Source of the DNA: Eriocheir sinensis
Taxonomy: Eukaryota; Arthropoda; Malacostraca; Decapoda; Varunidae
Length of the DNA: 64,000 nt
Reading direction: 5' to 3'
Assembly: GCF_024679095.1 (NCBI RefSeq)
Contig: NC_066544.1
Span: 2,498,283 to 2,562,282 of the forward strand
The stretch's first letter is position 1. Each line of letters starts with the position of its first letter. Made by a program: the position numbers and the translations under genes. The notes under the pieces were generated by a model, which saw only the letters and a program-made list of their open reading frames with translations, was not told the DNA's origin and did not search any database. Of this stretch, positions 7,982 to 57,963 are shown one piece after another.

Positions 7982-8041
<60 letters not shown>

Positions 8042-31304: not shown

Positions 31305-31499
31305 GTCACTGACACAACAAAAACACGTCCTCACACTCACCATCACTTTGTTGATGCGTCACTGGTCGTCGTCGTCTTCTGCCGAAGCCTCACCCCGCTC
31401 TCCCTCCTCCCTCCTCACCCCTTCCTACCACCTCCTGTGAGGATCGAGGTGGAAGGACGCTTGGGTGCCATAGTAGAGGTCAAAATGCAGTGTACGTAT
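31305..31499. other. Short GC-rich spacer
   Basis: Unassigned sequence between the truncated LINE and the 5' LTR. The last four bases are GTAT, relevant to the inversion argument. Confidence 0.5.
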
Positions 31500-31904
31500 T
31501 GTTGTGCTGGAAGCTTCCCCCGGCGTCCATAGGCCTCTAGAAGGCTCCAGGAGAAGCGAGCAGGGGGGCGGGGAGCAAAGCCTCGTCCGCGCCCCGCGGG
31601 GTGCGGCCAGGCGCCAGGCGGGAAGTGTTGCCAACTCGCACATACTTTAGCTACATGTTCTTGTATGATCTAAAATATACTGTAACATTCTAGACTGTAC
31701 TGTTCTGGATATATATAGGAGAAGAGGGCGAGAGAGCGGCTAGTTCCAGTCATAGTAAGCTAGTGGTAAGTGAAGAGTCAGAGTGAAGTGTACTACTGAG
31801 GAAGAATATTAAACTACAGAAGCGGTGCAAAGTCTTTACATATCCCCCTCCCACGGAGTCTCCTGACGGCGACACGGAACCCAAGTAACACGTCCGGCAT
31901 AACA
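31500..31904 (+). repeat. 5' LTR (405 bp)
   Basis: TGTTGTGCTGG ... CCGGCATAACA. Copies lie at 37305-37706, 53343-53743 and, inverted, 54656-55060. Confidence 0.95.
31710..31717 (+). promoter_or_regulatory. LTR TATA box
   Basis: TATATATA in CTGGATATATATAGGAG, in the middle of the LTR, where the promoter of such an element is expected. The same motif is kept in all four LTR copies. Confidence 0.6.
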
Positions 31905-31905
31905 C

Positions 31906-31919
31906 TGGTGTCAGGAGTG
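31906..31919 (+). promoter_or_regulatory. Primer-binding site
   Basis: TGGTGTCAGGAGTG lies one base after the LTR. It begins TGG, complementary to the CCA tail of a tRNA. From memory it differs by one base from the complement of the 3' end of a tRNA-Leu (CACTTCTGACACCA). Confidence 0.65.
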
Positions 31920-31939
31920 TAGCCATTTGTTTTTTCGCC

Positions 31940-33403
31940 ATGGAGACTCGTTCCCAAGCTGCCCAGAGGGACGACATGTTGACTGAACTTTTGGAAGCCT
32001 TGAGACTAAAGGGGGAGAAACAAGAAATAACACACCAAGAACTCAAAGAACAACAAGAAAAAGCACACCAAGAACTCAAAGAACAACAAGAAAAAGCACA
32101 CCAAGAACTCAAAGAACAACAAGAAAGAGCACAACATCAACAAGAAGGAACACTCCAAGAACTCAAAGAACAAGAAAAAGCACACCAAGAACTCAAAGAA
32201 CAACAAGAAAGAGCACAGCATCAACAAGAAGGAACACTCCAAGAACTCAAAGAACAGCTAGAAGATCGCTTCACAGGATTACAGCTACAGCTAAAAGCAG
32301 TACAAGATGGCAGTGAATCAGTGCGAAGAGAAATGACTGATGTGACCACGAACTTGGGACAACGCCTGATAGAAGTGGAGAAAGAACACACAAATCTTCA
32401 ACAAGAGATGGAGGTGGTACGGGAGACGACACACAAAGAAATATTAGAAGTAAGTGACAGAGTGAAGGCCCTTGAAGACTGCTTGGCTGGAAACGGACAG
32501 CCAGTGCCTGCAGGGGCTAGTTGTACCCAAGATGCTTCTCCTACGCAAGTCCGGGGTAGTTTGAGCCCTGTTTCGCCTGAGTTTATCCCCGCAAGAAGTT
32601 CCGCCAGCCCCATGAGTCTGCTGGGTTCGCCTGTTAGAAAGAAGCCTCAGGAGTTTGATGGCAAGGTCTCCTGGGAGGCTTACCGCGCTCAGTTTGAGCT
32701 GTTGGCAGCTCGGAACGGATGGGATGACCAAGAGTGCGCGGTACAGCTGGCCACTAGCCTGAAAGGGGCGGCGCTGGAGGTCCTTGCTCAGCTCGACAAT
32801 GCGACAAAGGGCAGCTACAGCGGGCTGGCACAGGCGCTGGCGCAACGATATGGGAATAAGCACCAGAACGAGCTCTTCAGGGTTAGGTTCAGAACCCGCG
32901 ACAGGAGGCGCGGCGAGTCTCTTCAGGAACTCGCTCAGGACCTTGAGAGCATGGCGCACAAGGCATACCCAGGTGCCACCCCTGACCTGCTGACGGTTTT
33001 ACTGCGTGATCAATTCATCGATGCCCTGGACAGCCCTCAGCTGAAGATACAAGTGAACCAAGCTAAGCCAACATCAATGCAGGAAGCTCTGGCACGTGCC
33101 ATGGAGTTTGAGTCCTTTGTTAGGTCTAGCTTGTCAAGCTTCAAGGACGACTCGACTTCTGGCTTTAGGGCACGAAAGGGCGCTGTCAGCAACACAGACA
33201 GGTTCCAAGGAACGTGCTGGTACTGCGAGAAGGTTGGGCACAAGGAGAACGAATGCTATAAGAGGAAGAAGGAATATGAAGGTGGCGCTAAGAAGAAGCC
33301 CAGGGAAGGACCAAAGTGCTGGACCTGTGGAGAAAAGGGGCACTGGAAGAATGAGTGTCGGAAAAATGTGCCCCCAACGAGGAACCACCACTCGGGAAAC
33401 TAA
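31940..33403 (+). CDS. gag: Gag polyprotein, coiled-coil repeats and two CCHC zinc knuckles
   Basis: A 487-residue structural protein of the retrotransposon particle. Residues about 28-110 consist of near-identical 11-residue units (AHQELKEQQEK and variants such as QHQQEGTLQELKEQ), predicted to form a long coiled coil. The middle (about 235-400) is the capsid-like part, with ALEVLAQLD and RGESLQELAQDL. Two nucleic-acid-binding zinc knuckles follow near the end: CWYCEKVGHKENEC and CWTCGEKGHWKNEC. ATG at 31940 is the first in frame after the primer-binding site. The end overlaps pol by 49 bases in the other frame. Confidence 0.92.
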   Translation: METRSQAAQRDDMLTELLEALRLKGEKQEITHQELKEQQEKAHQELKEQQEKAHQELKEQQERAQHQQEGTLQELKEQEKAHQELKEQQERAQHQQEGTLQELKEQLEDRFTGLQLQLKAVQDGSESVRREMTDVTTNLGQRLIEVEKEHTNLQQEMEVVRETTHKEILEVSDRVKALEDCLAGNGQPVPAGASCTQDASPTQVRGSLSPVSPEFIPARSSASPMSLLGSPVRKKPQEFDGKVSWEAYRAQFELLAARNGWDDQECAVQLATSLKGAALEVLAQLDNATKGSYSGLAQALAQRYGNKHQNELFRVRFRTRDRRRGESLQELAQDLESMAHKAYPGATPDLLTVLLRDQFIDALDSPQLKIQVNQAKPTSMQEALARAMEFESFVRSSLSSFKDDSTSGFRARKGAVSNTDRFQGTCWYCEKVGHKENECYKRKKEYEGGAKKKPREGPKCWTCGEKGHWKNECRKNVPPTRNHHSGN

Positions 33404-36400
33404 GAGGGACTGGTTCACGGGGGCAACGACCAGTCTGTCCTGTACATGCCCCGAAGATATCAGTGTGCAGGAGAACCACCATGACAAGCTGCCAAGTGGA
33501 GGGCAAGGTTGACGGAGTGTTGTGGCCTGTGGTCGTCGACACAGGCTCGGAACGCACATTGGTGCGGCCTGACGTGGTGAGTCATCGTCGGCTTCCTAAG
33601 ACGCCGCATCGACTGTGCGGAGTCACAGGACACTACGCAGAGCTCAGAGGCCCAGTGGACGTGAAGTTTGAGCTCGGAGGAAAGGAAGAGTTCCTCTCTG
33701 TGTACGTGGCCGACATGGAGGACCCCTGCATCCTAGGTATGGATTATCTTGTTTCCCACAGGTGCGAGCTGGACTTCCGCGCTAAGCAGCTGACTGTAGG
33801 AGGAAGGAGGGTGCCACTGACGACTGTGAACAAGGAAGACCTGTCAGTGACGGTCAAGCACACCACCATTATTCCTCCGAGGTCGGAGATGCTGTTACCC
33901 TGTCAAATTACGGGTGCCCCCCCGGCTAGCCCATGTGTGGTAGAGAGTGGAAGTCGATGCCCGGTAGAAAACGGGGTGATTGTAGGCAGTACTTTGGTAG
34001 ACCCTGCTGCAGCGGAAGTGCCTGTCATCGTGGCCGATGTCTCCTTCAGCCCAAAGAAAATAAAACAAGGGACCATGGTGGGGTTGTGCCAAGAGATCGA
34101 CCAGAAACCAAGAACCTGTGTCTGCAGGAGAACCCTGACGAAGCCCCAGGAGGAGCTGCCTGACTACCTGCGCGACCTGTTTGACAGGAGCTCCAAGTGT
34201 CTAGAGGAGCCCCAAGTGGAACAGCTCAGGGAGCTTCTCGTGAGGAATGCAGATGTGTTTTCCACAGGAGACCTGGACTTAGGGTGTACGGACCTGGTAG
34301 GGCACCACATCGACACAGGTAGCCACCGCCCAGTGAAGCAAGCTCCTCGAAGGATGGCACCAGCCCGTCGCAAGGAGATGGATGAGGTGATGGATGATCT
34401 CCGGCAACAGGGGTTAATCGAGCGGTCCAGCTGCCCGTGGGCGTCTGCTGTAGTGCTCGTCAGGAGAAGTGACGGTTCCCTCAGGTGCTGCGTGGACTAC
34501 CGAGCCCTCAACGATCTCACCATCAAGGATTCATACCCACTCCCACGGATCGACGACACGCTCGACGCTTTGGTGGGCTCCAAGTGGTTTTCAACACTGG
34601 ATATGAAGTCTGGGTATCACCAAGTCAAAATGGCGGAACAAGACAAAGAGAAAACAGCCTTCTCCTACGGTCAAGGCCTGTGGCAGTTTAAGGTCATGCC
34701 CTTTGGCCTATGCAACGCGCCGGCCACGTTCGAGCGGCTGATGGAGAGGGTGCTGGAGGGACTTCACTGGAAGACGGCACTCATCTACCTCGACGACGTG
34801 ATTGTCTTTGGCCAGACCTTCGAGCAAGAGATGGAAAGGCTATCAGAGGTTTTCGCCCGGTTTAGAGCTGCACACCTTAAGCTCAGCCCGAAAAAATGCT
34901 GTCTGTTCCAAAAGGAGGTCCAATACTTGGGACACATCGTGAGCGAGGCTGGAGTACGCACTGATCCTGAGAAGGTGGCTGCGGTAAGGGACTGGCCGAC
35001 ACCCACCAACGTGAAGGAGCTGCGGAGCTTCCTCGGGTTGTGCTCATACTACCGCAGGTTTGTGAAAGGCTTCGCTACGATTGCTGCACCACTGCACCTC
35101 CTGACGAAGAAGGGGCGCAAGTTTGAGTGGACAGCGGAAACTCAGGTTGCCTTTGAGAAGCTCAAGGAGGCCCTCATCAGCTCGCCCGTACTCACCTACC
35201 CAGACCCCTCTAAGCCTTTTATACTGGATTGTGATGCCAGTGATGAGGGGATTGGTGGAGTGCTATCCCAGGCATGTGCCGACATGGAACGGGTTGTGGC
35301 CTACTTCAGCAAGAAGCTCACTCCAGCCGAGAAAAACTATTGCGTGACCCGGAAAGAACTCCTGGCAGTAGTCAAGAGCCTTGACTTTTTCCATGCTTAC
35401 CTGTACGGTGCAACTTTCACCATCCGCACGGATCACTCTGCATTGCGGTGGCTGAAGTCACTGAAAAACCCTGAGGGCCAGCTTGCTCGCTGGATAGGTA
35501 AACTAGAGCAGCATCACTACACTATTGTGCACCGATCTGGACTAACACACGGTAACGCGGACAGCTTGAGCCGGCGCCCCTGCCTACCTGAGTGTCAACA
35601 TTGCCTCCAGAGGGAAAGCGCCCAGAATATGTGCCGCCGCACTACAGTGGAACAGACAGCGGAGGTGCCATGGGAAGACTTGGGAAAACTGCAACGGGAG
35701 GACCGAGATCTGAGACCAATTATGGAGTGGCTGAGTCAGTCGTCAACGCGACCTGGGTGGGAAGTAATCTCGAGAGAAAGCCCTACCACTAAGAATTACT
35801 GGACTCAGTGGGATACTCTTCGGATGGACGACGGGGTGTTGCAGCGACGCTGGGTCTCTCATGATGGTCTTGACCACTACTGGTCCACGGTGCTACCTGT
35901 GAAGTCCCGGGAAGGCGTCTTGAAAGAAATGCACGACAGCATCACCAGCGGACACCTTGGGGTAAAGAAGACACTGAGTCACCTGCGCCAAAGGTTCTAC
36001 TGGGTTGGCATGAGGAAGGACGTGGAAGAATGGTGTCACGCGTGTGAGGTGTGCTGTGCAAAGAAGGGCCCCAAGAAGCGTCACCGTGCCCCATTGCAAC
36101 TATACCAGGTTGGAGCCCCCATGGAACGGGTGGCAGTGGATATAGCAGGACCCTTGCCTCTGACGACGAACGGAAATAGGTACATCTGCGTCACAATGGA
36201 TTACTTCACCAAGTGGCCGGAAGCCTACGCCATCCCTGACCAGGAAGCCACTACCATCGCCAAGGTTTTGGTGGAGGAGTTCTTCTGTCGCTTCGGTGTG
36301 CCTAACGAGCTCCATTCCGACCAGGGAAGGAATTTTGAGTCAACAGTCCTTGCTGAGTGCTGCAAGCTTCTGGGTATCAAGAAGACCCGGACCACCCCTC

Positions 36401-37239
36401 TGCACCCACAGTCAGATGGAATGGTGGAGAGGTTTAATTGGACGTTGGGCCAGGAGTTGGCCAAGCAGTGCAACAATGATCAGTCTTCATGGGATCAGAA
36501 GCTGCCTGCACTCCTCATGGCCTACAGGTCTGCCGCCCACGAGACTACGGGGTATTCACCGGCAAAGCTGATGTTTGGACGTGAGCTGCGATTGCCGGTG
36601 GACCTACTGACAGGAAGGCCTCCTGGGGAAAGCCTTCCAAGGGACGCCTCCAGTTTTGCCCGTCAACTAGAGAAACGGCTGGAAGAGGTGCACCATCAAG
36701 TCCGTGGTGCCTTGAAGTTCTCCGGAGAGGCCATGAAGCGCGGTTACAATATGAGGGCAAGCCACGTTGACTTCAAGGAAGGAGACCAAGTCTGGCTTTA
36801 CAACCCGCAGAGGAAGAAAGGACAGTCTCCGAAGTTACAGAGCCCCTGGGAAGGCCCTTATACTGTGCTAGAACGCCTCTCCGACGTGACTTACCGAATC
36901 CGGAGAACGGAAAGGACCAAGCCGAAAGTTGTCCACATCAACCGGCTATGGAGGTACCACGGTCCGGGAAACTACACTAGGAACAACTACAGACACCCAG
37001 CAGCCAACGAAAACGCAAGGGACGTCCAGGACCGAGAGGAGGTCGACGACGACATAGGCCTTCTGGACCTTTCAGCCGAGGGAGATAACCTCCCGGCTTC
37101 GGCAGATGTTCCAGGGACACCCCAAGAAGCGGACGTCGACGAGGCGCACCAGGAGACAGACGCGCAGGAGGCACCGAGCAGAAGACAGAGACAACGCAGG
37201 CGTCCACAGCGATACGACGATTATTATGTTTTTGATTAA
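33355..37239 (+). CDS. pol: Pol polyprotein: protease, RT, RNase H, integrase
   Basis: This 1294-codon frame is in the -1 phase relative to gag. It has no ATG of its own at the upstream limit (a TGA precedes 33355), so ribosomal frameshifting in 33355-33403 is the likely route; no perfect slippery heptamer is present, though CGGAAAAAT and GTGCCCCCA are candidates. Protease DTGS at residues 62-65. RT with YLDD at 478-481. RNase H from about 620 (DCDASDEGIGG, then ELLAV and RTDHSAL). Integrase with an HHCC-type finger (SGHLGVKKT ... CHACEVC, about 867-900) and the D,D-35-E triad (D about 929, SDQGRNFE, E about 1025). Then a GPY/F module (EGPYTVLERL) and an acidic tail. All catalytic residues seen are intact. 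Confidence 0.93.
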   Translation: MSEKCAPNEEPPLGKLRGTGSRGQRPVCPVHAPKISVCRRTTMTSCQVEGKVDGVLWPVVVDTGSERTLVRPDVVSHRRLPKTPHRLCGVTGHYAELRGPVDVKFELGGKEEFLSVYVADMEDPCILGMDYLVSHRCELDFRAKQLTVGGRRVPLTTVNKEDLSVTVKHTTIIPPRSEMLLPCQITGAPPASPCVVESGSRCPVENGVIVGSTLVDPAAAEVPVIVADVSFSPKKIKQGTMVGLCQEIDQKPRTCVCRRTLTKPQEELPDYLRDLFDRSSKCLEEPQVEQLRELLVRNADVFSTGDLDLGCTDLVGHHIDTGSHRPVKQAPRRMAPARRKEMDEVMDDLRQQGLIERSSCPWASAVVLVRRSDGSLRCCVDYRALNDLTIKDSYPLPRIDDTLDALVGSKWFSTLDMKSGYHQVKMAEQDKEKTAFSYGQGLWQFKVMPFGLCNAPATFERLMERVLEGLHWKTALIYLDDVIVFGQTFEQEMERLSEVFARFRAAHLKLSPKKCCLFQKEVQYLGHIVSEAGVRTDPEKVAAVRDWPTPTNVKELRSFLGLCSYYRRFVKGFATIAAPLHLLTKKGRKFEWTAETQVAFEKLKEALISSPVLTYPDPSKPFILDCDASDEGIGGVLSQACADMERVVAYFSKKLTPAEKNYCVTRKELLAVVKSLDFFHAYLYGATFTIRTDHSALRWLKSLKNPEGQLARWIGKLEQHHYTIVHRSGLTHGNADSLSRRPCLPECQHCLQRESAQNMCRRTTVEQTAEVPWEDLGKLQREDRDLRPIMEWLSQSSTRPGWEVISRESPTTKNYWTQWDTLRMDDGVLQRRWVSHDGLDHYWSTVLPVKSREGVLKEMHDSITSGHLGVKKTLSHLRQRFYWVGMRKDVEEWCHACEVCCAKKGPKKRHRAPLQLYQVGAPMERVAVDIAGPLPLTTNGNRYICVTMDYFTKWPEAYAIPDQEATTIAKVLVEEFFCRFGVPNELHSDQGRNFESTVLAECCKLLGIKKTRTTPLHPQSDGMVERFNWTLGQELAKQCNNDQSSWDQKLPALLMAYRSAAHETTGYSPAKLMFGRELRLPVDLLTGRPPGESLPRDASSFARQLEKRLEEVHHQVRGALKFSGEAMKRGYNMRASHVDFKEGDQVWLYNPQRKKGQSPKLQSPWEGPYTVLERLSDVTYRIRRTERTKPKVVHINRLWRYHGPGNYTRNNYRHPAANENARDVQDREEVDDDIGLLDLSAEGDNLPASADVPGTPQEADVDEAHQETDAQEAPSRRQRQRRRPQRYDDYYVFD

Positions 37240-37290
37240 TTCTCTTATGTTTGTATATAGTTAAGTGTGTGATCGGGACGATCACAATTA

Positions 37291-37304
37291 AGAGGGGGGG
37301 ATAG
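37291..37304 (+). promoter_or_regulatory. Polypurine tract
   Basis: AGAGGGGGGGATAG directly before the 3' LTR; the expected plus-strand primer site. Confidence 0.8.
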
Positions 37305-37706
37305 TGTTGTGCTGGAAGCTTCCCCCGGCGTCCATAGGCCTCTAGAAGGCTCGAGAAGCGAGCAGGGGGGCGGGGAGCAAAGCCTCGTCCGGGCCCCGCG
37401 GGGCGCGGCCAGGCGCCAGGCGGGAAGTGTTGCCAACTCGCACATACTTTAGCTACATGTTCTTATATGATCTAAAATATACTGTAACATTCTAGACTGT
37501 ACTGTTCTGGATATATATAGGAGAAGAGGGCGAGAGAGCGGCTAGTTCCAGTCATAGTAAACTAGTGGTAAGTGAAGAGTCAGAGTGAAGTGTACTACTG
37601 AGGAAGAATATTAAACTACAGAAGCTGTGCAAAGTGTTTACATATCCCCCTCCCACGGAGTCTCCTGACGGCGACACGGAACCCAAGTAACACGTCCGGC
37701 ATAACA
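37305..37706 (+). repeat. 3' LTR (402 bp)
   Basis: Same ends as the 5' LTR. Differs from it by a 3-base shortening at GGCTCGAGAAGCG and about six substitutions. Followed by AGAG. Confidence 0.95.
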
Positions 37707-37942
37707 AGAGTATAAAAAGAACAATACTAAAAGAAACGATGAAAAATGTTGGAAACAAAAGATTCAAAGAAAGGAAGACAAGGCTAAAAGGATGGTGGGA
37801 CAAAGAGGTGGAAGAAGCATGGAGCACCAGGAAAAAAGAGAACAGGAAGCAGAGAGACCTGAGCAAAATGATGACGAAGCATGGGGAACAGTACAGACAA
37901 AAATGGCAAGAGGCATGGGATATCAGGGCGTTATCGCGATAA
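37707..37942 (+). pseudogene. LINE ORF2 linker fragment
   Basis: The frame reads GWWDKEVEEAWSTRKKENRK and then EQYRQKWQEAWD. This is the region between endonuclease and RT in many LINEs (a WW-x-EV type motif). Only about 65 codons are present. It starts exactly at the LTR boundary. Confidence 0.6.
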
Positions 37943-37998
37943 GTTATCGCGATACTTTATCGCTGATAACAAAATCGGGTTATCGGCCATCCGCTACT
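37925..37998. repeat. TTATCG/CGATAA palindrome cluster
   Basis: CAGGGCGTTATCGCGATAAG followed by further TTATCGCGATA words. Possibly the end of a hAT-type element (CAGGG start); no partner end identified. Confidence 0.4.
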
Positions 37999-39059
37999 TA
38001 TTTAAATATATATCGGTATCTTCGTTACTTTTGTAACCAAACTAGCGAAAATCGCTATTTTTTTCCGCCTCTCAGAAAATAAAAAGTTGTCTCCTACCTA
38101 CTGGGCATGCGTAGCCCGGGCGCCCGGTGTTGTATGAAAAAACTTCGGGGTATGAAATATCTTCGGTGAAGAGATTTCATACTTAGATCATCAACATTAA
38201 AACACTAGGTTATTTTTTTTTATGTTAGACTCAAAAATCAATATATCAAAGAGAAAAATCATTTAACTGTGCCCAAAAAATGATTATTCACTGCCTCAAA
38301 TTTGATATTCCATATTCGTTTGTGAGCATGCCAAGGTATTGAAGGCACACGGTGGTGTGTTATTTGGTGTCCCATCGTCAAAAGCTGGCGCTTTTGTTTA
38401 CAAACACTGGTCTCTCGTGAACTACGCATGTTCAGACCAGTAAGTGTACCCCTGCACAGTCTCACAAAGCTTTTTAACACATTAAGAGTTGCTGGAAGGC
38501 TGAATCAAAGGTCAAAAGAAGAAGAAAAAATACCGCCCCTACCCACCACCAGTGTGTTTCATACAGCGAGCGAGTGCATGATTGTGCAGTGACGCCCATG
38601 GCATGACACAAGCCATAAGTGAGTGAGTGTGTGTGTTAGTGACGCCCCTCCCGGCAGTGCTCACCGTCGGTAGTCAGTGCTTCCCCGACGTAGTTCAGTG
38701 CTCGGTGCTCCGTACACCTCCGGGATGCCTGACGTGACTCTCGGCCTCCTGCCGCCGCGGCCCCTGGCTACACTGCCAGCGTCTCTGGACGCGGCCAAGG
38801 CCTCCACAACCATCACCGACCCTGCACTAACGTGCCCCTCCAAGATGTCCGACGACGACGCTGCGCAGGGCGTGGCCAGCCTCCGTGCCTCCACCGTCAT
38901 CAGCGACAGTCTGACCCACTGTAATGGCCCGAAATGTACTACAATTGTAATGGTATTTTTCCCCATGTAAATAGAGTTAACCTGGGATGTTTGCGCAACC
39001 AGTTATATATGTATGTGGGTTTCTCATGGCAGAGAGAGAGAGAGAGAGAGAGAGAGCCA
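37999..39059. other. Non-coding region before the I-type LINE
   Basis: 38.0-38.6 kb is AT-rich and unassigned. From about 38640 it becomes GC-rich with a 97-codon frame (MPDVTLGLLPPRPLATL ...) that I do not recognise; it may be a degenerate LINE 5' region. A (GA)n run lies at about 39031-39056. Confidence 0.4.
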
Positions 39060-39170
39060 TCTTGGTGAACGGACCTCGCCCCCAGCCTGCCGTCCGTTTT
39101 TCCCTGGTGACCAACCCAGAGTACTTCCCAACCACCCCTAGCTCTACACGACATCCCTGGCAGCCCCTGG

Positions 39171-40377
39171 ATGTCGTCAGACCCGGGAGAAGGCCGCGAG
39201 GCCGCCTCCATGCACATACTCCCACTCGGGGCCTCCCATGCCGACCTTGAACAGTCGCCCTCGCCCGCCGAGAACATGGACGCCACCACCATCACCTCCA
39301 AACGCCAACGCTCTCCAGACGGTGACGTACCCACCAACAAACATAAACAACACGTGTCCTACCACACTCCTGACCCCACCAACCCACCCCATGTGCCCAT
39401 CCTCCAACCCGCAGCCCAGTCCCTCCCTGCACCCACACCTACCTTCACCTTCGCCAACCACCCTGGTCCTGACGGCAAGTCGCCCTTAGTGGTGTGTATG
39501 TCGTCATTCGTCCACAAGCGCTGCTTCATCCATCCGACCAAGGTGGCCACAGCACTACACGGCTCCATCTTTCAAAAGAAGATGATAGAGGGGACCCTGA
39601 AGATCACACACGGGGGGTATGGGGTAGCTACGTTTCGAGGTAGCAAACCTCGACAACCTATCTCAGGCCCCAGAGTCTGTGACCTCTCTGGGGGATTGGC
39701 CCATCCGTTGCCGGGTAATAGACCCAGACCCAACCCACAAACCCACTTATGGACGAATCTACCCAGTTGACACTGCCATGACTGACAAAGACATCCTAGA
39801 CAAGCTGACTGTTCTGGGAGGTTCCCCTTCAGAGCCAATTGCCATATGCCGACTCCCAGGCAAATTCATTGACGGCGCCAGAACTCCAGGTCTGGCGATG
39901 CGCATCAAGTTGAAGGGCTCCCTTCCCTCAAATGTAGCCATAGACAGCATGGCTTACACAGTAAGACCTCACACCATCCCTTCCCTCCAATGCTTCCACT
40001 GCCTGTCGTACGGGCATGGAACGGGGACGTGCAGGGGCCATGTCAGGTGCCGTACCTGCAGCGGTTTCCACTAGGGATGAGCAAGTACCGTTAATTTGAG
40101 TACCGTTAGTACCGGTACCGAAAACTCAAGTACCGTTAGCACCGGTACCGGTACCGGTACCCGAAGGAGATTTTTTTCTTAATGACTTCTGATGAAATTC
40201 CCAAATAAATTTCCTGTAAAAAAAACTCTCTCTCTCTCCTTCAATTTAATATCAACTAGAGTAGAAATGCAACGTTTAGGAGTCTTCTGATTAATGTAAA
40301 ATCACTTAGGTTTAAGGACAGACCACCTAGTCTGGACCATGGGGTCTGTGTGGTCTGATTTTCTATGTAAATCTATG

Positions 40378-40413
<36 letters not shown>

Positions 40414-45200: not shown

Positions 45201-46009
45201 ACACCTCCACTACCTGGAAGCTCCATCCCCACACCACCATCCTTGGGGCAGAGCTCTTTGGCATCAGGGAGGGCCTCACAGCTGCAACCACACTTCCCCC
45301 ACATCAACATGTCTCCCTCTTCACAGACTCCCTCACGGCCCTCCAACTCCTCTCCACCCACAGACCACACACACACCACGCTCTCTGCTTTGCCATCCAC
45401 TCCCTCTTGGCACAGCTGACCTCTGGGGGCAGACGGGTCCACCTTCAGTGGGTCCCTTCACATATTGGCATTGTGGGCACCACCGTGGCGGACCAAGCGG
45501 CCAACCTGGCACACACACACCCACAGACCATAGACAGACCACCAGACCACACTGACTTACTGATCCACCTCCGCCAATCCTCCCACAGACACTGGACCAC
45601 CGGACTAACGGCTGACCTCAGATGGCTCACCCTTGGACGCTACAGACACTCCCCCGCCCAGCACTGGCGGCCCTACTCCCCCAGTCGTCCCCTCGACACA
45701 GCCATCACCTGCTTGAGGATTGGCCACAGCCGCCTCAATGCACACCTGCACAGACTGTCTATAGTCCAAGACCCACACTGCCCATGGTGCCCCACACAAC
45801 CCGACACACCGGAACACCTCCTTCTCCACTGCCCAGGATTCCACTCCCTCCGCACCAACCTCAGAGCTTCCCTAACAAGACTCTGCATTCACAGGCCAAC
45901 CCTAGAGGACCTGCTGGGCAGCGACACTCTCAGCCCCGGCACAGCCTTCCAAGCCCTCAAGTGTACGCAGACCTTCCTGCAGAAGTCGGGGCAACTCGAT
46001 AGGATCTAA
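42217..46009 (+). pseudogene. I-type LINE ORF2: endonuclease, RT, RNase H
   Basis: Endonuclease 42217 to about 43180: FWNARSLYYKLPQF, IGVCETWL, IMGDFNAHHAHW, GSDHLPVIL. The frame then shifts near 43190 and several more times to about 43770. RT from 43770: YCPISLLSCVSKLFE, FLDLEGAFDSASH, GVPQGSPLSPLLF and catalytic YADD (FIYADDISLL). Stops TAG at 44909 and TGA at about 44942 precede RNase H (FTDGSH about 45137, GAELFGIREG, FTDSLTALQLL, HIGIVGTTVADQAAN) and a C-terminal CPWC ... HLLLHCPGFH motif. Several breaks make it inactive, but each domain still shows its key residues. Confidence 0.87.
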
Positions 46010-46171
46010 CCACCGCACCGGTGACAGAACAACGACCAAAAACAACACCGGATAGCGATTACTACTGACGGGGCTCTAGAGGCTGTGGTCCCATAGCCTA
46101 ACTAGCCCCATAAAAAAACCCAAGAAGAAGAAAGAAGTACACAAGAGAAGGAGAAAAAAATTAAAAGTATG

Positions 46172-46175
<4 letters not shown>

Positions 46176-46254
<79 letters not shown>

Positions 46255-46255
46255 C
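46176..46255. repeat. (GA)n microsatellite
   Basis: GA dinucleotide run following the LINE 3' end. Confidence 0.97.
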
Positions 46256-46784
46256 CAAGAGTGGTGTTGAAACAAAGAGGCCTGTTGTGCTCCCATATCT
46301 CCCCTACAATTTTTCGTGTCAACAAATTTCAGAGGTGTCAGGGGTCAAAACAGGGTATCGTTGCCAAAAAGTGGTCAATCTGCCTTCTTTAAATTACTGC
46401 GGGAGAACGGTAAATATTTATAATGGAAATAAAATACCAGTGACCTTATATTGATATTGGAGGCCTACCAAAGAAATCTCAGGTCTCAAGCAGGCCTAAC
46501 CTGCGATCAGTTTGTCATTCCGTGACGTCACACCAAGAACATTTTGGGGCCGAGACTAACGCCCCTTCCTCGCACTATAGGTTGTGGGAGCAGGCTCATT
46601 CTCACGAGCGACATCGCCCTTTCAGGTGAGGAGAGCTGTTCACGGTGTTCAACTCACTTTGGCTATAATACTATAACTGAGAGCTCATTCTCACGAGTGA
46701 CATCGCCCCTTTCAGGTGCGCCAAAGGCAAACCTGACAGATGGGAAGCTGGGCGTCGCCCAGACCAAGGCCAACATACAGCCAG
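46256..46784. other. Unassigned, with an 88-bp-spaced direct repeat
   Basis: CTCATTCTCACGAGYGACAT followed by CGCCC(C)TTTCAGGTG occurs at about 46596 and again at about 46684. TGACGTCA lies at 46523. No coding region recognised. Confidence 0.5.
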
Positions 46785-46932
46785 TAGGGATGGGCAAGTA
46801 CCGTTAATTTGAGTACCGGTAGTACTGGTACCGAAAACTCAGGTACCGTTAGTACCGGTACCGGTACAGGTACCCGAAGGAGTATTTTTTTATCTATGAC
46901 TTTTGATGAAATTCCCAAATAAATTTCCTGTA

Positions 46933-46992
<60 letters not shown>

Positions 46993-47490
46993 AATTGCAT
47001 GAATATTTATTTTTTCGAAAAAAAAATAGCATGTATAGTTATTATGGATGTACTCGATCATAGTCTAATAACAATAACAATATTTAGTAGCAACCTAAAA
47101 AAGAAAAAGAATCGGACATGAAGAATTATCCAGTAACTCCAATAAATAAATAAAATAATAGAAACGGGAGCTGTGATGGAAACGGAAAGCAGGACAAAAT
47201 GGTGGGAACTTGGGGAGACGGTCAGCGAGGCAGTGACTCAGCGTCTCCACACAGGGCCCATACCGCATGGAGGCGGGCGAGCGCCGAGCGTCACTAAGAT
47301 CCAAACGGCACCGGTACTAGCGGCAATGCGCAGTGCCGAGTGATCATGACGCTTCCCGGCACCCGAGTGATCATGAGGCTTCGCGGTACCAGGTACCGGT
47401 ACCTGGTACCGCGAAGAATCGATTCCTAGCGGTACCCGGTACCGGTACCTGGTACTGCGAAGAATCGATTCCTAGCGGTACCCGGTTAAC
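46785..47490. mobile_element. hAT-like element, right-truncated
   Basis: Begins TAGGGATGGGCAAGTACCGT. Carries a (CT)n run (46937-46987), the GACTATGATCGAGTAC module, and GGTACC arrays with GAATCGATTC at about 47415 and 47465. The expected right end is absent; Ty3-type sequence follows. Confidence 0.75.
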
Positions 47491-47528
47491 TGTGAGGTAT
47501 AATGAACCTACTTAATTAATTAAAAAGA

Positions 47529-47865
47529 GTGCCCATGAACGGCACGACACCACCAGCTCAAGGCTCTCATCACCAAGCTGCAAACGGAGGTCCGCACGCT
47601 CGAGGAGGACATCATATGAGCCTACGACGCCACTCCTCGTCACCGCACAGGCACTCCTCGTCACTGCACAGCCACTCCTCGTCACCGCACAGCCACTCCT
47701 TGTCACCAGATCACCACTCCTCATCACCCCGCTACCACCACCATCGCTCCACCTCTAGTAGTAGCCCCACACACAGCCCCGGCGTCTGCTACTACCACAG
47801 GAGGTTCGGAAAGGATGCCAGGAAGTGCACGTCTCCCTGCAGCCTCCAGGATTCTTCGCAACAGC
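47529..47865 (+). pseudogene. Ty3-2 gag C-terminus
   Basis: Ser/His-rich repeats (HSSSPHSHS) precede [14 protein letters not shown], the short Cys/His motif typical of the end of Gag in several arthropod Gypsy elements. A frameshift at about 47860 leads into the protease frame. Confidence 0.65.
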
Positions 47866-49289
47866 CCCGGCAGGCCCTGACAGCACAAAGCGTCCGCCAA
47901 CCACCTCGAAGCTGCTCCACATCTTCGATCCACTCTCCCGCACCAACTTCCTCATCGACACTGGAGCCGAAGTCAGCGTTCTTCCCGCCACACCAAGCCA
48001 GAGGTCCTTGCCAACCATCATTCGCCTCTACGCGGCTAACGGCATGGGGATCTTTGTCTTTAAGAAACAGACGCTCCAGCTTAACCTCAACCTTTGCCGG
48101 TCGTTCGAGTGGACCTTCTACGTGGCGACAGTTTCGCAACCAATCCTGGGCGCCGATTTCCTGACTCATTACCATTTCCTGATTGACCTCAGAAGCCGCA
48201 AGCTCCTGGATCCACTAACATCCATCTCCACCAGAACCAGAGCAGCAGCAGGAGAAAGCACCCACATCTCTACCGTCAGTGCAGACATCCGATTCGCGTC
48301 TCTCCTGAAGTCCTTCCCGACGCTGACGCAGCCACACACAGCCAACAATCCCATGAAGCACCACGTGACGCACCACACTGAGACAACCGGACCAACAACA
48401 TGCGCCAAGGCTCGCCGCATAGCTCCAGAACTCTACCAACAAGCCAAGGCCGAGTTCGAGTCTCTGATGAGCCAAAGTGTCATCTGCCCCAGCTCAAGCA
48501 ACTGGTCGTCTGCCCTCCATGTATTCCATAAGAAGAACGGTGACATAAGACCATGCGGAGACTACCGAGCTCTCAACTCGCGCACTGTCATGGATCGTTA
48601 CCCAGTGCCGAATATCCATGAGTTCTCCTCACAGCTTGCTGGCTCCACCATCTTCCCCAGGATCGACCTCATCAAAACCTTCCATCAGATTCCAGTCAAT
48701 CCAGCGGACATCCCGAAGACAGCCATTATTACACCTTTTGGCTTGTACGAATACGTCCGGATGCCGTTTGGCCTCAAGAACTCTGCCCAAACCTTCAAGA
48801 GGTTCATGGACGAAGTGCTGCGAGAACTGACATTCTGCTTCGCCTACATCGACGATGTCCTCATCGCCAGTCCTGACGCTGACACACACCGCCAACATCT
48901 AGAACAAGTTTTCACCCGTCTCCAGCTGGCAGGACTACGGCATTCAAATCAGCGTCGACAAGCCAGAGTTCGGTGCTACCTCTGTAGACTTCCTCGGCCA
49001 CACCGTCTCTCCTCCAGGCATCACTCCCATCTCTTCCCACTGCGACGCCATTCAACAGTTCTCGAAGCCGACAACTCAGCGCCAGTTCAAACAGTTCCTC
49101 GGGATGATAAACTACTACAACCGCTTCATTCCACGCTGTGCGCTCATCTTTCAGCCACTCTACTCCATGATCAAGCCCTGCAAGAAAGGCCAGTCCGTCA
49201 CCCTCACCTGGACTCCCGAAGCTGACGACGCCTTCCTCAAAGCCAAGGAGGCACTGAAGGCTGTTACCACACTCAGCTTCCCTACTCCA
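47825..49289 (+). pseudogene. Ty3-2 protease and reverse transcriptase
   Basis: Protease: [13 protein letters not shown] with the active-site DTG at residues 45-47. [40 protein letters not shown], and catalytic YIDD ([11 protein letters not shown]) at about residue 341. Near 48940 the frame shifts; the rest of the RT ([22 protein letters not shown]) continues in the next frame to 49289, where the DNA element inserts. Catalytic residues are intact but the frame is broken. Confidence 0.85.
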
Positions 49290-50313
49290 GGGGCGGAATC
49301 CACAAAGGCTTAGTGCGTAATTTTGGGCCCTTAGTGCGTAGTTTTGAGAACATCGAGATTCACAAAGCTCGCGTGGTAATAACTACCAACTAATCGATGA
49401 CGTCACGGGTTAGCGCGCGGATTTACAAACGTTTACCGCGCTCTGTGTGACACTAAATTTGTTGTTAAATAACTACTGCCTCGGAGCTGACGATAACGCT
49501 AACAATATTATCATATTTACGTATAAGTGCTTATAAATCGCGTTTTTCAATTTGAAATATAACTTTGCGAGTAGAGGAAGCCCATTTCTTTATAAAATGA
49601 TGAGATATACACACTTTGAGAGGTATATGATAAGTGTGGGCGGTATGGCAACACCCGGCCGGGGGATTGCCAGACCTCCCTCCTCCTTCGTCTTCCTACC
49701 TCCTCATCCATTCGATCATCCATCCATCTCTACATTTGTCCCTCCGTGGGACCATGGACCTTTGTCGGGTGACAGCCCATGAGTTGGGCTGCAGATATGG
49801 CAAGACAGTCTTAACTTTTCCTCGTTCCTTCCTTCCGTCCTTGTCTGCCTCGGTATATATATATGCTACATTATTTTTAATTTGCTCTCTTCCTGACTCA
49901 ATCTCCCCCTTATCTTCTTTTTCTTCCCCTTAAGCATGTTCTTAGATAACAAGACATCGAACAGCAGCGTTACCTTGACGTAAATGTGCAGCAAACAACG
50001 ATATAATTGTTCCTAGATTATGATTTAGTACAGTTTGCCTTTAAAAGAAAGAAAATGGGAAAAGAGAACGGGTTCTTTTGAACCAGCAGCTGGAGGGGCC
50101 TCCCTAGGATTGGCTGACGGTTTTGTGAACATGCTTGTGATTCGCCGCAAGGCCAATGACGTCATCAACCAATCAGCGGCCTCGCTGACTTAGCGCGCCT
50201 CTAACTACCATCTAAAGTTTGCTTTGTGAATCTGACGCTAACGTCGGGCGCTAAATCAATAGTGCGTAGTTATGTTAATTTGTAGTTAGTGAGTATGTTT
50301 GTGAATTCCAGCC
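49290..50313. mobile_element. DNA element of the GGAAYTCACAAA family, copy 1
   Basis: Starts GGGGCGGAATCCACAAAG and ends CTTTGTGAATTCCAGCCC-like sequence; read inward from the right the terminus is GGGCTGGAATTCACAAA. Nearly identical over ~1 kb to copy 2. It contains TGACGTCA at 49398 and 50157, the second flanked by ATTGGCTGA and CCAATCAGC. No transposase. The target duplication is unclear; the ends recall PIF/Harbinger, but this is a guess. Confidence 0.75.
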
Positions 50314-50500
50314 CAGATGCCACTACTTCCATCTCCACGGATGCCTCAGACACTGGCGTTGGTGGAGTCTTACAGCAGCACGTAAACGGAGCCTGAGACC
50401 CATTGCATTCTTCTCACAGAAACTCAACAACGCCGAAAAGAAGTACAGCGCCTTCGATAGAGAACTTCTCGCCATCTACAAGGCTGTCAAGCGCTTCAGC
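50314..50500 (+). pseudogene. Ty3-2 RNase H segment between two insertions
   Basis: Reads STDASDTGVGGVLQQHVNG, then after a frameshift FFSQKLNNAEKKYSAFDREL and LAIYKAVKRF. These are the first RNase H motifs (Asp in TDAS, Glu in DREL). Both sides are cut by the ~1 kb DNA elements. Confidence 0.8.
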
Positions 50501-51523
50501 GGCTAGATTCACAAAGGCTTAGTGCGTAGTTTTGGGCCCTTAGTGCGTAGTTTTGAGAACATTGCGATACACAAAGCTCGCGCGGTAATAACTACCAACT
50601 AATCGATGACGTCACGGGTTAGCGCGCGGATTCACAAAGTTTTACCGCGCTCTGTGTGACGCTAAATTTGTTGTTAAATAATTACTGCCTCGTGGGTGTA
50701 GTAAACGCTAACAATATTATTATATTTACGTATAAATGCTTATAAATCGCGTTTTTCAACTTGAAATATAACTTTGCGAGTAGAGGAAGCCCATGTCTTT
50801 ATAAAATGATGAGATATACACACTTTGAGAGGTATATGATTAGTGCGGGCGGTATGGCAACACCCAGCCGGGGGATTGCCAGACCTCCCTCCTCCTTCAT
50901 CTTTCTACCTCCTCATCCATTCGATCATCCATCCATTTCTACATTTGTCCCTCCGTGGGACCATGGACCTTTGTCGGGTGACAGCCCATGAGTTGGGCTG
51001 CAGATATGGCAAGACAGTCTTAACTTTTCCTCGTTCCTTCCTTCCGTCCTTGTCTGCCTCGGTATATATATGTGCCACATTATTTTTAATTTGCTCTCTT
51101 CCTGCCTCAATCTCCTCCTTATCTTTTTTTCTTCCCCTTAAGCATGTTCTTAGATAACAAGACATCGAACAGCAGAGTTACCTTGACGTAAATGTGCAGC
51201 AAACAACGAAATAATTGTTCCTAGATTATGATTTAGTACAGTTTACCTTAAAAGAAAGAAAATGGGAAAAGAGAACGGGTTCTTTTGAACCAGCAGCTGG
51301 AGGGGCCTCCCTAGGATTGGCTGACGGTTTTGTGAACATGCTTGTGATTCGCTGCAAGGCCAATGACGTCATCAACCAATCAGCGGCCTCGCTGACTTAG
51401 CGCGCCTCTAACTACCATCTAAAGTTTGCCTTGTGAATCTGACGCTAACGTCGGTCCCTAAATCAATAGTGCGTAGTTATGTTAGTTCGTAGTTAGTGAG
51501 TATGTTTGTGAGTTCCACCCCTG
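50501..51523. mobile_element. DNA element of the GGAAYTCACAAA family, copy 2
   Basis: Same orientation and almost the same sequence as copy 1. The left end is AGCGGCTAGATTCACAAAGG; read inward, the right end is AGGGGTGGAACTCACAAA. TGACGTCA lies at 50607 and 51364. Confidence 0.75.
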
Positions 51524-52563
51524 GATACTTCGTCGAAGGCCGGGAATTTCACATTTTACACCGACCACAAGCCTCTTGCCACAACTTTCATGAACAACAA
51601 GTCTACCTACACTCCCAGGCAGCTGCGCCACATTGACTTCATCTCACAATTTACGACAGACATCCGGTACGTAGGCGAAGACAACATCCCCGCCGAAGCT
51701 CTCTCCCGCAACATCTTTGCAATATCCTCCTCCCTCATCGATTATGCCGCCATTGCTGCAGACCAAGTTGACGCCGCCGAGCTGCAGCAGTCGGTCGAAG
51801 ACATAACAACGGACACCATCGCCAGAGCCTTCGTCAACACCTGGGTGTCACGCTTCTGTACACCTCTCAGCCTCACATCTGACCGTGGAAGCCAGTTCGA
51901 GTCGAGCCTGTGGGACAAGGTCATGTCCATCCTGGGGATCAAGCGTATCAGAACCGCCAGCTACCATCCTCAATCCAATGACCTTGTCGAACGCTTCCAC
52001 CGCCAACTCAAGGCCTCGCTGGCAGCAACGATACAGGACCGCAGCGACTGGACCTCAACCCTGCCCCTAGCCCTCCTCGGCATACGGACGTCCCTTAAGG
52101 AAAACTTCGGCCACTTCTCTGCAGAGCTCCTGTACGGCACCATTCTCCGCCTACCAGGAGAGGTTCTCTCGCCCACCACTCCTGGCCCTTCCAGTGACAT
52201 CCAGGACTACGCCAGGAACCTCAAGGACACCATGCAGAGACTCCAACCAGTGCCGCCGCGTACATCACCCTCCACGACGTTCGTGAGCCAGGACTTCGAC
52301 ACCTGCACACACGTGTTCGTGCGAGTGGACGCCGTGAAGAAGCCTCTTCAACAACCGTACGATGGCCCCTTCGCCATCCTCAAGAGGACGCACAAAAACA
52401 TCACCATTGACCGCCACGTCAAGTCCGACATCATCGCCATTGACCGGGTCAAGCCAGCGTATCTCCTGCGTCCAGATCATCCACCAACCAACACCGCGTC
52501 AGTGTCCCCTAATCCAGTACCCAAAGACAGTGTCCAGTGTAACAAAAAACAAACAAACATGTA
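51524..52563 (+). pseudogene. Ty3-2 RNase H end and integrase with internal deletion
   Basis: RNase H ends in FTFYTDHKPLATTF-like sequence and RYVGEDNIPAEALSR. Integrase then begins abruptly at DITTDTIARAFVNTWVSRF: the zinc-binding HHCC domain and the first catalytic Asp are missing, apparently by an internal deletion after AELQQS. The second Asp (TSDRGSQFE) and Glu (DLVERFHRQ) remain, 35 residues apart. The C-terminal YDGPFAILKR module is present. The integrase cannot be functional. Confidence 0.83.
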
Positions 52564-52793
52564 CAGTCACCTCTCGATTAACACGAGTTTAAATAACGCG
52601 TTTTTTTATATTTAACACGAGTTGATATTTAAGGAGATACGTTTAACCAAGGATTATATACCATAAGGATAGCTCACTAAGCTTTTGTTTTACCCACAAT
52701 GCACCGCGGATGACGTCACACATGTAAACAAATGGTGCTCGGCGGCAAACTGGGTCACTTCACTACGTTCTCACCGTAGCGTGCTCAGTGAAA

Positions 52794-52979
52794 ATGGTGA
52801 TTTGTGGTGTATATGGGTGTTACAGTGGCTCATCTGCGGAAAGTTGTCAAGGTGTTAAGTTCATTAAGTTTCCTAGAGACAAACACACCTTGAAGAAGTG
52901 GATTTTGGCCTGCAAACGAAAAGATAAAGTGAAGGTGAAGTCTGCGCGGGTGAGGTCCAAACATTTTTCAAGAAAGTGA
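52794..52979 (+). pseudogene. THAP-type zinc-finger N-terminus, degenerate
   Basis: Starts MVICGVYGCYSG, then FIKFPRDKHTLKKWILAC and RVRSKHF, 61 codons in all. The spacing matches the THAP DNA-binding domain: Cys-x4-Cys, the FP motif, the invariant Trp, and the final Cys-x2-His with HF. Here the last Cys is replaced by Arg. Several DNA transposases carry THAP domains, so this is probably the N-terminus of the family E transposase. It ends at TGA and no catalytic part follows. Confidence 0.6.
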
Positions 52980-53066
52980 TAACATTAAAGAAAAGCCAAT
53001 AAAGCTCCATAGTGAAAGTTTGGTAAAGGTAAATTCATTTAGTTAATAATTTGCATAAATATTATA

Positions 53067-54138
53067 CAACATGAGTCCTTGATTTGCACGATAGATGCGT
53101 TCCAGAAGGGAACGTGCAGAGTAAATTTCGTGCAATGTAAGGATGATCACCCCCAGTACTGGAGTAAACTGGGTAATTATTGAAAATCACTCCGCACCTC
53201 CAAAATACGATATTACGCCTCCATATTGTACTTAAGGGACGAAATACATGTCTCTTATCCATAATATGAAGGCGGAAAAACTTAAAAATAATGAAAAAGT
53301 GGTAAAGGTGGTGAAAAGGCATATTATACATACTCTACATACTGTTGTGCTGGAAGCTTCCCCCGACGTCCATGGGGCTCTAGAAGGCTCCGGGAAGAGC
53401 GAGCAGGGGGGCGGGGAGCAAAGCCTCGTGCGCTTTCAGGGCGCGGCCAGGCGCCAGGCGGGAAGTGTTGCCAACTCGCACATACTTTTGCTACATGTTC
53501 TTGTATGATCTAAAATATACTGTAACATTCTAGACTGTACCGTTCTGGATATATATAGGAGAAGAGGGCGAGAGGAGTCCAGTCCCAGTCATAGTAAGCT
53601 AGTGGTAAGTGAAGAGTCAGAGTGAAGTGTACTACTAAGGAAGAATATTAAACTACAGAAGTTGTGCAAAGTGTTTACATATCTCCCTCCCACGGAGTCT
53701 CCTGACGGCGACACGGAACCCAAGTAACACGTCCGGCATAACAATACACTATGTTAAAGGATGGGAGTTGATTGAGTAAACCTCGATCTCTTTGGAGTAC
53801 TACCACATGCTGGAGAATCCGATGGGCGCTTGGGAGCCATGGTTAATTGGTGGTAAGTTGATAACACACTGAACGAATGGGGAGAGAGACGCTACCACAG
53901 CCGTGCGTGGGTAAAGAATGAGCGGCCTGGGTGGCGGTAAACACAGCGGGTGGCGGGAAACACCTAGTGACGCCTGGTGGCTGCATTACTGAACTAAATC
54001 AGCCGCGCCAAACTTGATTTTCTTGAAATCGTGTTATTTTAAGGAATCTGTGTAATATGAGGAAAAAAAACCATATTTTTTGACACCGTGCTATTTTGAA
54101 TTCGTGCAATTAAAGTCGTGCAAATCAAGGACTCCCTG
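53067..54138. mobile_element. Family F TA-target element nested in family E
   Basis: Left CAACATGAGTCCTTGATTTG and right read inward CAGGGAGTCCTTGATTTGCA; both continue CACGA. TA at 53065-53066 and 54139-54140. Interior holds the solo LTR. Non-autonomous. Confidence 0.7.
53343..53743 (+). mobile_element. Solo LTR of the 31.5 kb Ty3 family, with 4-bp TSD
   Basis: A 401-bp copy of the LTR from TGTTGTGCTGG to GGCATAACA, flanked by ATAC on both sides (53739-equivalent left copy at 53339-53342, right copy at 53744-53747). A typical product of recombination between the two LTRs of one insertion. Confidence 0.92.
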
Positions 54139-54655
54139 TATATGTATGTATATAAAAAAATAAAAAAAATCCTTTCATTATATATGACAGGATTAGTTAT
54201 CCCTGCAAATTAAGTTGTAGAAAACTTATGTTAATAAAAGTTAAGAAAAAGTAAGCATCGATGGTAAACAGCAATATTTCTGCAGCTTTTTTACCATGTT
54301 TCTCACATTATTTATATTATTGTATACTATTAGCCAACACAACAACTGCCTAATTTAATTACTTATCCTTAGCAATCAAAAAAGTGCAAAATCTGACCAT
54401 GAATAAGAATAAATAAGGGTTTTCTAGTACATTTTATACCGTGAGGGGAGGGTGAGTGTTAACCAGATGACGCACCGCAGTCATGACATCATCGATGACG
54501 TTTCAGTGAGCTATCCTTATAGTATATAATAGTTGCGTTTAACTAACGCGATATGTTCGATTTAACACGAGTTTCATCGATGACGTCACCGAGCGGAGAC
54601 GCTGTCTCAGTCTGAAGCTAGCCGGCACTGTCAGTGGAATGTTTCTCTGGAATAC

Positions 54656-55060
54656 TGTTATGCCGGACGTGTTACTTGGGTTCCGTGTCGCCGTCAGGAG
54701 ACTCCGTGGGAGGGGGATATGTAAACACTTTGCACCGCTTCTGTAGTTTAATATTCTTCCTCAGTAGTACACTTCACTCTGACTCTTCACTTACCACTAG
54801 CTTACTATGACTGGAACTAGCCGCTCTCTCGCCCTCTTCTCCTATATATATCCAGAACAGTACAGTCTAGAATGTTACAGTATATTTTAGATCATACAAG
54901 AACATGTAGCTAAAGTATGTGCGAGTTGGCAACACTTCCCGCCTGGCGCTTGGCCGCGCCCCGCGGGGCCCGGACGAGGCTTTGCTCCCCGCCCCCCTGC
55001 TCGCTTCTCCTGGAGCCTTCTAGAGGCCTATGGACGCCGGGGGAAGCTTCCAGCACAACA
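54656..55060 (-). mobile_element. Inverted solo LTR of the 31.5 kb Ty3 family, unmatched flanks
   Basis: A 405-bp LTR copy in minus orientation. The left flank is ATAC (54652-54655), the right flank CTCT (55061-55064); they do not match each other, but they match the right and left flanks expected from the Ty3 element at 31500 after an inversion. At diagnostic sites it is a mosaic of the 5' and 3' LTRs of that element. Confidence 0.92.
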
Positions 55061-55573
55061 CTCTGTTCCCACTAGCACTCGTGTTGTTGTCGGGGCGTCA
55101 CTGCACACGCATGCACACATGGCACGGCACTTAGCACGACTGGGTGTAAGGGCGCCTCTGCACTCGATGTTCGCGGGGCGAGAAGAGGTGCTGACGGGCG
55201 TCGGGGGCCACTGCGGAGGGAGTGCAGCTGCAGGAAACGCCAACGGTGATACCGATGCCGCGGGGGTAAGAAGGCGTCGGCAGGGATGCCGGGAGCCACA
55301 GCGACAGGGGACTGGTGAGGTGGCTAGTGAACTGGTGTGTCGGGCTGGCGTAGGAGGAAGGCGGCCGTGGGAGCTGCGTGCGGCAGGGAGAGGCTGAGGT
55401 ACGGTGGTGAGTCGCCCGTAGGAGCGGGTGGCTGGACTGGGCGCCGTGGGCGGGGCAAGGTACAGCGGCGAAGGTGAGACAGCCGTAGGGGTGGCGTTGG
55501 AACGGCTGGCTGGGCCGGGCTGGGCTGGGCTTGGCGAGGTACTGGATCCTGCTGGCGTTGAGGTAGCCATGGG
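55061..55573. other. GC-rich, CpG-rich unassigned segment
   Basis: Base composition is sharply different from the surroundings. A Pro/Ser/Ala-rich minus-strand frame crosses it, but it looks like a composition artefact. It could be a promoter or first-exon region of a host gene, or part of an unknown element. Confidence 0.4.
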
Positions 55574-55789
55574 GAGGGGTGGGCAGGTACCGGTACCAGT
55601 ACCGGTACCAGATTGCTCGGTACCGGTACCAGTTGCTCGGATTTATTTATTGGATTTATTGATAATTCTTCATGTCCGATTTTTTTTTTAGGTTGCTAAT
55701 AAATATTGTTATTGTTATTAGACTATGATCGAGTACATCCATAATAACTATACATGCTATTTTTTTATCGAAAAAATAAATATTCACTT

Positions 55790-55863
<74 letters not shown>

Positions 55864-57361: not shown

Positions 57362-57398
57362 GCCATAGGTCACGTGGTGACTCGTGAGGGCCGGAAGG

Positions 57399-57900: not shown

Positions 57901-57963
<63 letters not shown>

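Follow-up and report, generated by a model that had tools for sequence, protein, structure and literature searches.

Exchanged target duplicates and split repeats point to a 17-kb inversion between inverted Ty3-type LTRs in the Eriocheir sinensis genome

In a 64,000-nucleotide stretch of Eriocheir sinensis contig NC_066544.1 (C36:2498283-2562282 in our contig numbering; referred to here as the window), the 16,949-bp segment at 37707-54655 has, we are confident, been flipped by recombination between inverted copies of one Ty3-type family of long terminal repeat (LTR) retrotransposons. A full-length element (31500-37706, plus strand) lies beside the left breakpoint, and the right end of its 402-bp 3′ LTR (37305-37706, plus strand) is the breakpoint itself. 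An inverted solo LTR of 405 bp (54656-55060, minus strand), the putative recombination partner, lies at the right breakpoint. The two stand in opposite orientation, and their LTRs are 99% complementary. Each breakpoint splits a repeat, the target duplicates of the two insertions are exchanged between the breakpoints, and the same arrangement is present in two copies of the locus. From these features we infer that the exchange was a homologous recombination inside the element. An inversion of about 17 kb through inverted LTRs had been proposed in a first-pass annotation of this DNA, and it is supported by other copies of the two interrupted repeats, which rejoin the junctions in 7 of 8 cases at the left insertion site (site A) and in 8 of 8 at the right insertion site (site B).

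Coordinates and strands confirmed that four LTRs of one family lie here. Besides the 3′ LTR and the inverted LTR, these are the 405-bp 5′ LTR of the full element (31500-31904, plus strand) and a 401-bp solo LTR (53343-53743, plus strand), an older family member that was not involved in the exchange. Read in the sense of each LTR, the flanks are GTAT and AGAG for the full element, AGAG and GTAT for the inverted LTR, and an intact ATAC duplicate for the solo LTR at 53343-53743. The site A duplicate, GTAT, has its left half at 31496-31499 (plus strand) and its right half, displaced by the inversion, at 54652-54655 (minus strand). The site B duplicate, AGAG, has its left half at 55061-55064 (minus strand) and its right half at 37707-37710 (plus strand). 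When the segment was turned back in silico, perfect 4-bp duplicates formed at both sites. Every common flank word was exactly 4 bp, with no extension, and no match between the 100-bp flanks exceeded 14 bp. The flanks reported at first pass (GTAT/AGAG around the full element, ATAC and CTCT around the inverted LTR, and a clean ATAC/ATAC around the solo LTR) were thus read correctly.

The predicted uninverted junctions were compared with uninterrupted copies of both interrupted repeats in the same genome; these copies represent further members of the two repeat families rather than the same locus, and those of a single family do not count as independent. At site A, the flank ending at 31499 was predicted to continue into the reverse complement of 54655 downward. 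The left part of the site A repeat (31300-31499, plus strand), whose right part lies reversed at 54538-54655 (minus strand), was used as a query; 45 matches were listed, among them the window and the second locus copy, and 8 of the others were fetched. Seven of the 8 fetched copies go from ...GTGTACGTAT, or a near variant of it, into the reverse complement of 54655 downward, with GTAT (ATAT in one) followed by TCCAGAGAAA, as predicted. In BLAST alignments, six copies matched over 118 to 120 query bases at 79 to 95% identity (E values of 1.7e-30 to 3.9e-51). Against the site A copies, the present neighbor, 37707-38106, gave nothing comparable (best E value, 0.099).

At site B, the reverse complement of 55061 upward was predicted to continue at 37711 onward. 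The interrupted repeat is a long interspersed nuclear element (LINE) copy, of which 13 nt (55061-55073, minus strand) are severed from the remainder at 37711 onward; the remaining piece at 37707-37939 (plus strand) contains a 77-aa open stretch (37709-37939). The query 37707-37915 gave 40 listed matches, 1 in the window, 1 in the second locus copy and 38 further genomic copies with 93 to 98% identity, 8 of which were fetched. In all 8, the duplicate is immediately preceded by AGTGGGAAC, with which the reverse complement of 55065-55073 agrees in 9 of 9 bases, and the sequence then runs on as at 37711. A 9-base match would arise by chance with a probability of about 4e-6. The position of the duplicate reads AGAG in one copy, AAAG in five, and AGAA in two. 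The whole reverse complement of 55061-55073, AGTGGGAACAGAG, matches 13 of 13 bases in copy L088 and 12 of 13 in the other seven; this 13-mer is unique within the window, where a second occurrence of its first 9 bases lies at 27059. Upstream of the 13 nt there was no clear similarity to the fetched copies, so the LINE copy at site B was probably 5′-truncated about 13 nt from the insertion point. A homologue search with the 77-aa piece yielded 24 candidates, none at an E value of ≤0.1. Both junctions were therefore recovered, each with the target word, or a word that differs from it by one base, in a single copy. Because both interrupted repeats resume at the opposite breakpoint, the swap of the duplicates is not due to chance.

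By themselves, the duplicates would have been weaker evidence. From the 4-mer frequencies of the window, the double match has a chance of about 2e-5, and the first-pass annotation had called such a match unlikely, with the caveat that a preference for ATAC/GTAT would weaken one half of it. A search of the same genome (1.77 Gb) with the inverted LTR, in which the best candidates were scored, found at least 43 places: 3 in the window, 3 in the second locus copy, and 37 others (36 complete and 1 partial), which were fetched with their flanks. After 2 LTRs with duplicated flanks were dropped, 34 fetched loci (L015-L048) provided 43 host-facing ends. Target preference proved very strong, with NTAN at 40 of these ends, and GTAT was found at 8, stemming from 5 insertions; AGAG was found at none. 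Since the family inserts at NTAN and GTAT is common among its targets, the figure of 2e-5 is overstated; with the preference considered, the GTAT half has a chance of about 0.19 and the joint chance is nearer 1e-3. The inversion read at first pass is upheld, by virtue of the repeat junctions.

Flank matching elsewhere in the family was also imperfect. All three full elements with both LTRs in the list (C2, C14, and C17) have matching flanks. For 20 more LTRs a mate was looked for and identified in 11 cases, and the flanks match in 8 of these (two of the 8 with identical flanks); among the 3 mismatched full elements, one has an uncertain LTR end and one lies in a three-LTR array. Solo-type copies have matching flanks in 5 cases and mismatched flanks in 4. 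Because mismatched flanks are not rare in the family, the duplicates alone leave real doubt; they are not decisive and are weaker than first claimed. Mismatched duplicates have reportedly been the subject of an earlier survey of human endogenous retroviruses (HERVs).

A reciprocal mismatch resembling that of the window was seen between loci on different contigs: the full element at L046 (C5:7341102-7341505, with its mate in L074) has ATAT/GTAG, and the LTR at L045 (C16:8366142-8366545) has GTAG/ATAT. Both words fit NTAN, so this pairing may be due to chance. In L076 (C3) together with L048, an LTR follows a polypurine tract and precedes a primer-binding site, in an apparent LTR-interior-LTR-interior-LTR array.

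The arrangement in the window is best explained as follows. Two elements of the family had inserted about 17 kb apart in opposite orientation, the left one at GTAT within a repeat (site A) and the right one at AGAG within the 5′-truncated LINE (site B). Recombination may then have joined a full element and a solo LTR, with the exchange within the LTR, or two full elements, one of which later lost its interior by LTR-LTR recombination. Either event would invert the intervening DNA, leave each element with one half of each target duplicate, and divide each interrupted repeat between the two breakpoints. Both options are compatible with what is seen. The inverted segment contains several repeats, and its scanned open reading frames (ORFs) match transposable element domains only.

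For the LTR comparison, the eight LTRs of the two locus copies (four each) were set beside 36 others, and the solo LTRs served as an outgroup. Where the inverted, 5′, and 3′ LTRs differ, the change is mostly private to a single LTR. Column 325 has G in the 5′ and inverted LTRs and T in the 3′ LTR in both locus copies, which fits an exchange in which the 3′ LTR received its right part from the other element. Support for the earlier description of the inverted LTR as a mosaic of 5′- and 3′-LTR bases is weak, most differences being private. Inter-element recombination is visible if the LTRs of one element fail to cluster, according to an excerpt of the paper on REANNOTATE (PMC2672092). The tree built from the 44 LTRs has a branch (98/85) that includes the 5′ and inverted LTRs of the window and excludes the 3′ LTR. 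Column 91 was considered as a conflict and rejected; young copies have G there, so a private reversal is the simplest account of the C in the 5′ LTR.

Several observations weigh against the inversion or against the exchange as outlined. At site A, one of the 8 copies departs at the boundary, and another continues over 45 bases only (E value, 2.6e-15). AGAG is an off-consensus target for a family with so strong a preference for NTAN. Another GTAT is found 3 bp into the right flank of the full element, so that a GTAT duplicate with a 3-nt filler is possible. Column 335 has C in the 5′ LTR, as in the C2 copy, and G in the inverted LTR, and it fits a simple exchange only with an extra change. Grouping of the 5′ and 3′ LTRs of the two locus copies in a single clade was not rejected by an approximately unbiased (AU) test (P = 0.365). 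Bootstrap support in the 44-LTR tree had yet to converge, and a long branch sets apart the 5′ LTR of the second locus copy, which was also included in the AU test. Comparison of the element interior with the C2, C22, C17, and C14 copies revealed no clear switch (C2 versus C22). Alignment of the LTRs, put forward at first pass as a way to map the crossover, was carried out and did not locate the crossover; with mostly private changes, the LTR mosaic was rejected as a crossover map. A chimeric origin of both copies fits column 325 but not column 335.

Within the inversion account, a small share of our confidence goes to a variant in which the full element originally occupied the right site and recombined, through its 5′ LTR, with a left solo LTR. 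The flanks are equally compatible with this order of events. It predicts that the 3′ LTR matches the 5′ or the inverted LTR at column 325, but the observed bases are G and G against T, in both locus copies; this counter-evidence is a single site.

The second locus copy bears on whether the arrangement is an assembly artefact, in which the assembler passed through the LTR repeat and flipped the segment. The copy is near identical, lies about 0.7 Mb away on the same contig (C36:1808988 onward), and has the same four LTRs in the same order with the same flanks. Matching stretches are 1808988-1860000 and, within the sequence sampled, 1900001-1904581 (L009-L012, L014, L049, and L051). Compared with window positions 31097-64000 and beyond, it contains additional stretches, of roughly 10.7 kb and 1 kb; its left edge corresponds to window position 31097, and a run of 4,647 N bases lies a few kilobases further left. 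In the element interior, the two copies differ by 0% in some bins and by 4 to 7% in others, with small gaps. On the basis of the 3 to 4% divergence seen at first look, the second copy was considered as an older paralogue; this was dropped, the differences being patchy. Such patchiness makes uneven consensus quality likely, so no dating was based on the second copy. Either a recent duplication or an unpurged haplotype could account for it, and we therefore treat it as a second reading of the structure and not as an independent history.

An artefact of this kind is improbable. A false path through inverted repeats would give exactly this signature, the arrangement is known from the assembled sequence alone, uncollapsed haplotypes are possible in an assembly that holds a second copy 0.7 Mb off, and the N run lies near the left of that copy. 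However, the repeat is merely 0.4 kb long, the window is free of N and belongs to a contig of 17.7 Mb in an assembly with contigs of up to 45 Mb, private variants distinguish the LTRs, and the second locus copy has the identical arrangement.

We give very little credence to the view that there was no inversion and that the duplicates were lost independently, with tetranucleotides that match by chance. The GTAT match is cheap under the NTAN preference, and family members with mismatched flanks are not uncommon (4 of 9 solo-type copies and 3 of 11 full elements, with the uncertain end and the array among the latter), but this view gives no reason for each interrupted repeat to pick up again at the opposite breakpoint. 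Equally hard to credit is that another inverted repeat pair (40068-41309 versus 55591-57962) caused the inversion and that the LTRs were bystanders: its pieces are mutually inverted and about 90 to 96% alike, and its large copies point one way inside the segment and the opposite way outside (chance of 1/8, four loci), but the host-repeat splits fall exactly at the LTR ends and the breakpoint positions contradict it.

The composite repeat in question occurs at 40068-41309, 46781-47508, 55591-57962, and 7948-8179 and includes (GA)n arrays and palindromic GGTACC-rich units. The orientation of its copies across 40 to 57 kb agrees with the inversion; it was rejected as support, given the same 1/8 chance and a 50-bp piece at 10780-10829 in the opposite orientation.

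The full-length element that borders the inversion has an LTR pair and both gag and pol domains. The gag ORF (31940-33403, plus strand) encodes 487 aa without interruption and includes a CCHC knuckle. The pol ORF (33355-37239, plus strand), also uninterrupted, encodes 1,294 aa in a different frame, with a 49-nt overlap. The gag zinc knuckle, aspartyl protease, reverse transcriptase (RT), RNase H, and integrase gave separate Pfam matches in pieces of gag and pol, and consecutive pol pieces follow the Ty3 order of protease, RT, RNase H, and integrase. The integrase core match was below the Pfam cutoff; the zinc-binding and C-terminal integrase domains were above it. The LTRs have TG..CA ends and a short target duplicate, in agreement with Metaviridae. 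Directly after the 5′ LTR lies CTGGTGTCAGGAGTG, the start of which recurs in other copies of the element; it is a candidate primer-binding site that may match the 3′ end of tRNA-Leu. A tRNA scan of the window found no tRNA, and a search for the exact LTR patterns in viral contigs found none. The 5′, 3′, and inverted LTRs diverge by 1.0 to 1.5% from one another, which makes them young members of the family; no date is assigned, for want of a rate.

Protein searches with gag and with the RT piece scored only the candidates with the most words in common. For gag, 49 of 7,991 candidates scored had E values of ≤0.001. Among these, the best matches per genus to Ty3-type elements of decapods had identities of 53% in Homarus, 53% in Petrolisthes, 48% in Chionoecetes, and 46% in Scylla over 50 to 54% of the query; relatives from Oratosquilla, Portunus, and Octopus were also named. 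The spread of matches suggests a decapod host. The RT piece is 71% identical to an Eriocheir protein. No near-identical named element was present among the 49 (gag) and 120 (RT piece) proteins listed.

Other features of the window were also recorded. A direct repeat (49298-50314 and 50507-51521) of about 1 kb, with 95.6% identity and 1.2-kb spacing, has an RT-bearing ORF (47825-49222) to its left and an ORF that matches integrase weakly (51590-52612) to its right; it is perhaps an internal duplication within another LTR element. Left of site A, 28017-31301 is a LINE with a weak GDSL-lipase-like ORF (below the Pfam cutoff), an endonuclease ORF, and an RT domain that ends abruptly near 31.3 kb.

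These results indicate that a single genome is enough to demonstrate a 17-kb inversion at the base-pair level when other copies of the interrupted repeats serve as empty sites, and they provide a well-resolved example of an LTR retrotransposon-mediated inversion in a decapod crustacean genome. They also call for caution, in that target preference weakens the evidence of swapped duplicates and can conceal such events. We suggest tentatively, and with more doubt than belief, that small inversions between LTRs of this family are frequent in the genome and mostly invisible, because insertion at NTAN gives most copies the same few duplicates (ATAT and GTAT); on this reading, the inversion in the window would be visible because one partner inserted at the off-consensus AGAG. 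If so, uninterrupted copies of the surrounding repeats could reveal flips genome-wide without a second genome.

The mechanism is already known, and the window is a clean case of it. A phrase-limited literature search found no LTR retrotransposon case of exchanged duplicates; the cases found were Drosophila inversions involving DNA transposons. In the parts of the reports cited here, the marks of ectopic recombination between transposable elements are opposite copies at the breakpoints, exchanged duplicates, and chimeric copies (Delprat and colleagues, PMC2775673), and exchanged duplicates are held to be unequivocal evidence for it in the case of BuT5 (PMC3355041). LTR-LTR recombination also alters local structure in the HERV-K rearrangements, but the portion of that account cited here describes a three-LTR array and an inverted LTR, with no inversion of host DNA with swapped duplicates (PMC3625200). 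Inversion 2s of Drosophila mojavensis, as far as the cited section goes, shares the exchanged duplicates and differs in that the element is a miniature inverted-repeat transposable element (BuT5) with 9-bp duplicates, the inversion is fixed, and one copy is reduced to a footprint (PMC3355041). According to the cited part of the report on inversion 2z3 of Drosophila buzzatii, that case resembles the window in having opposite copies at both breakpoints, exchanged duplicates, and known noninverted junctions; there, in contrast, the element (Galileo) is a DNA transposon with 7-bp duplicates, the inversion is a natural one, the noninverted chromosome was sequenced, and the copies were shown to be chimeric (PMC2775673).

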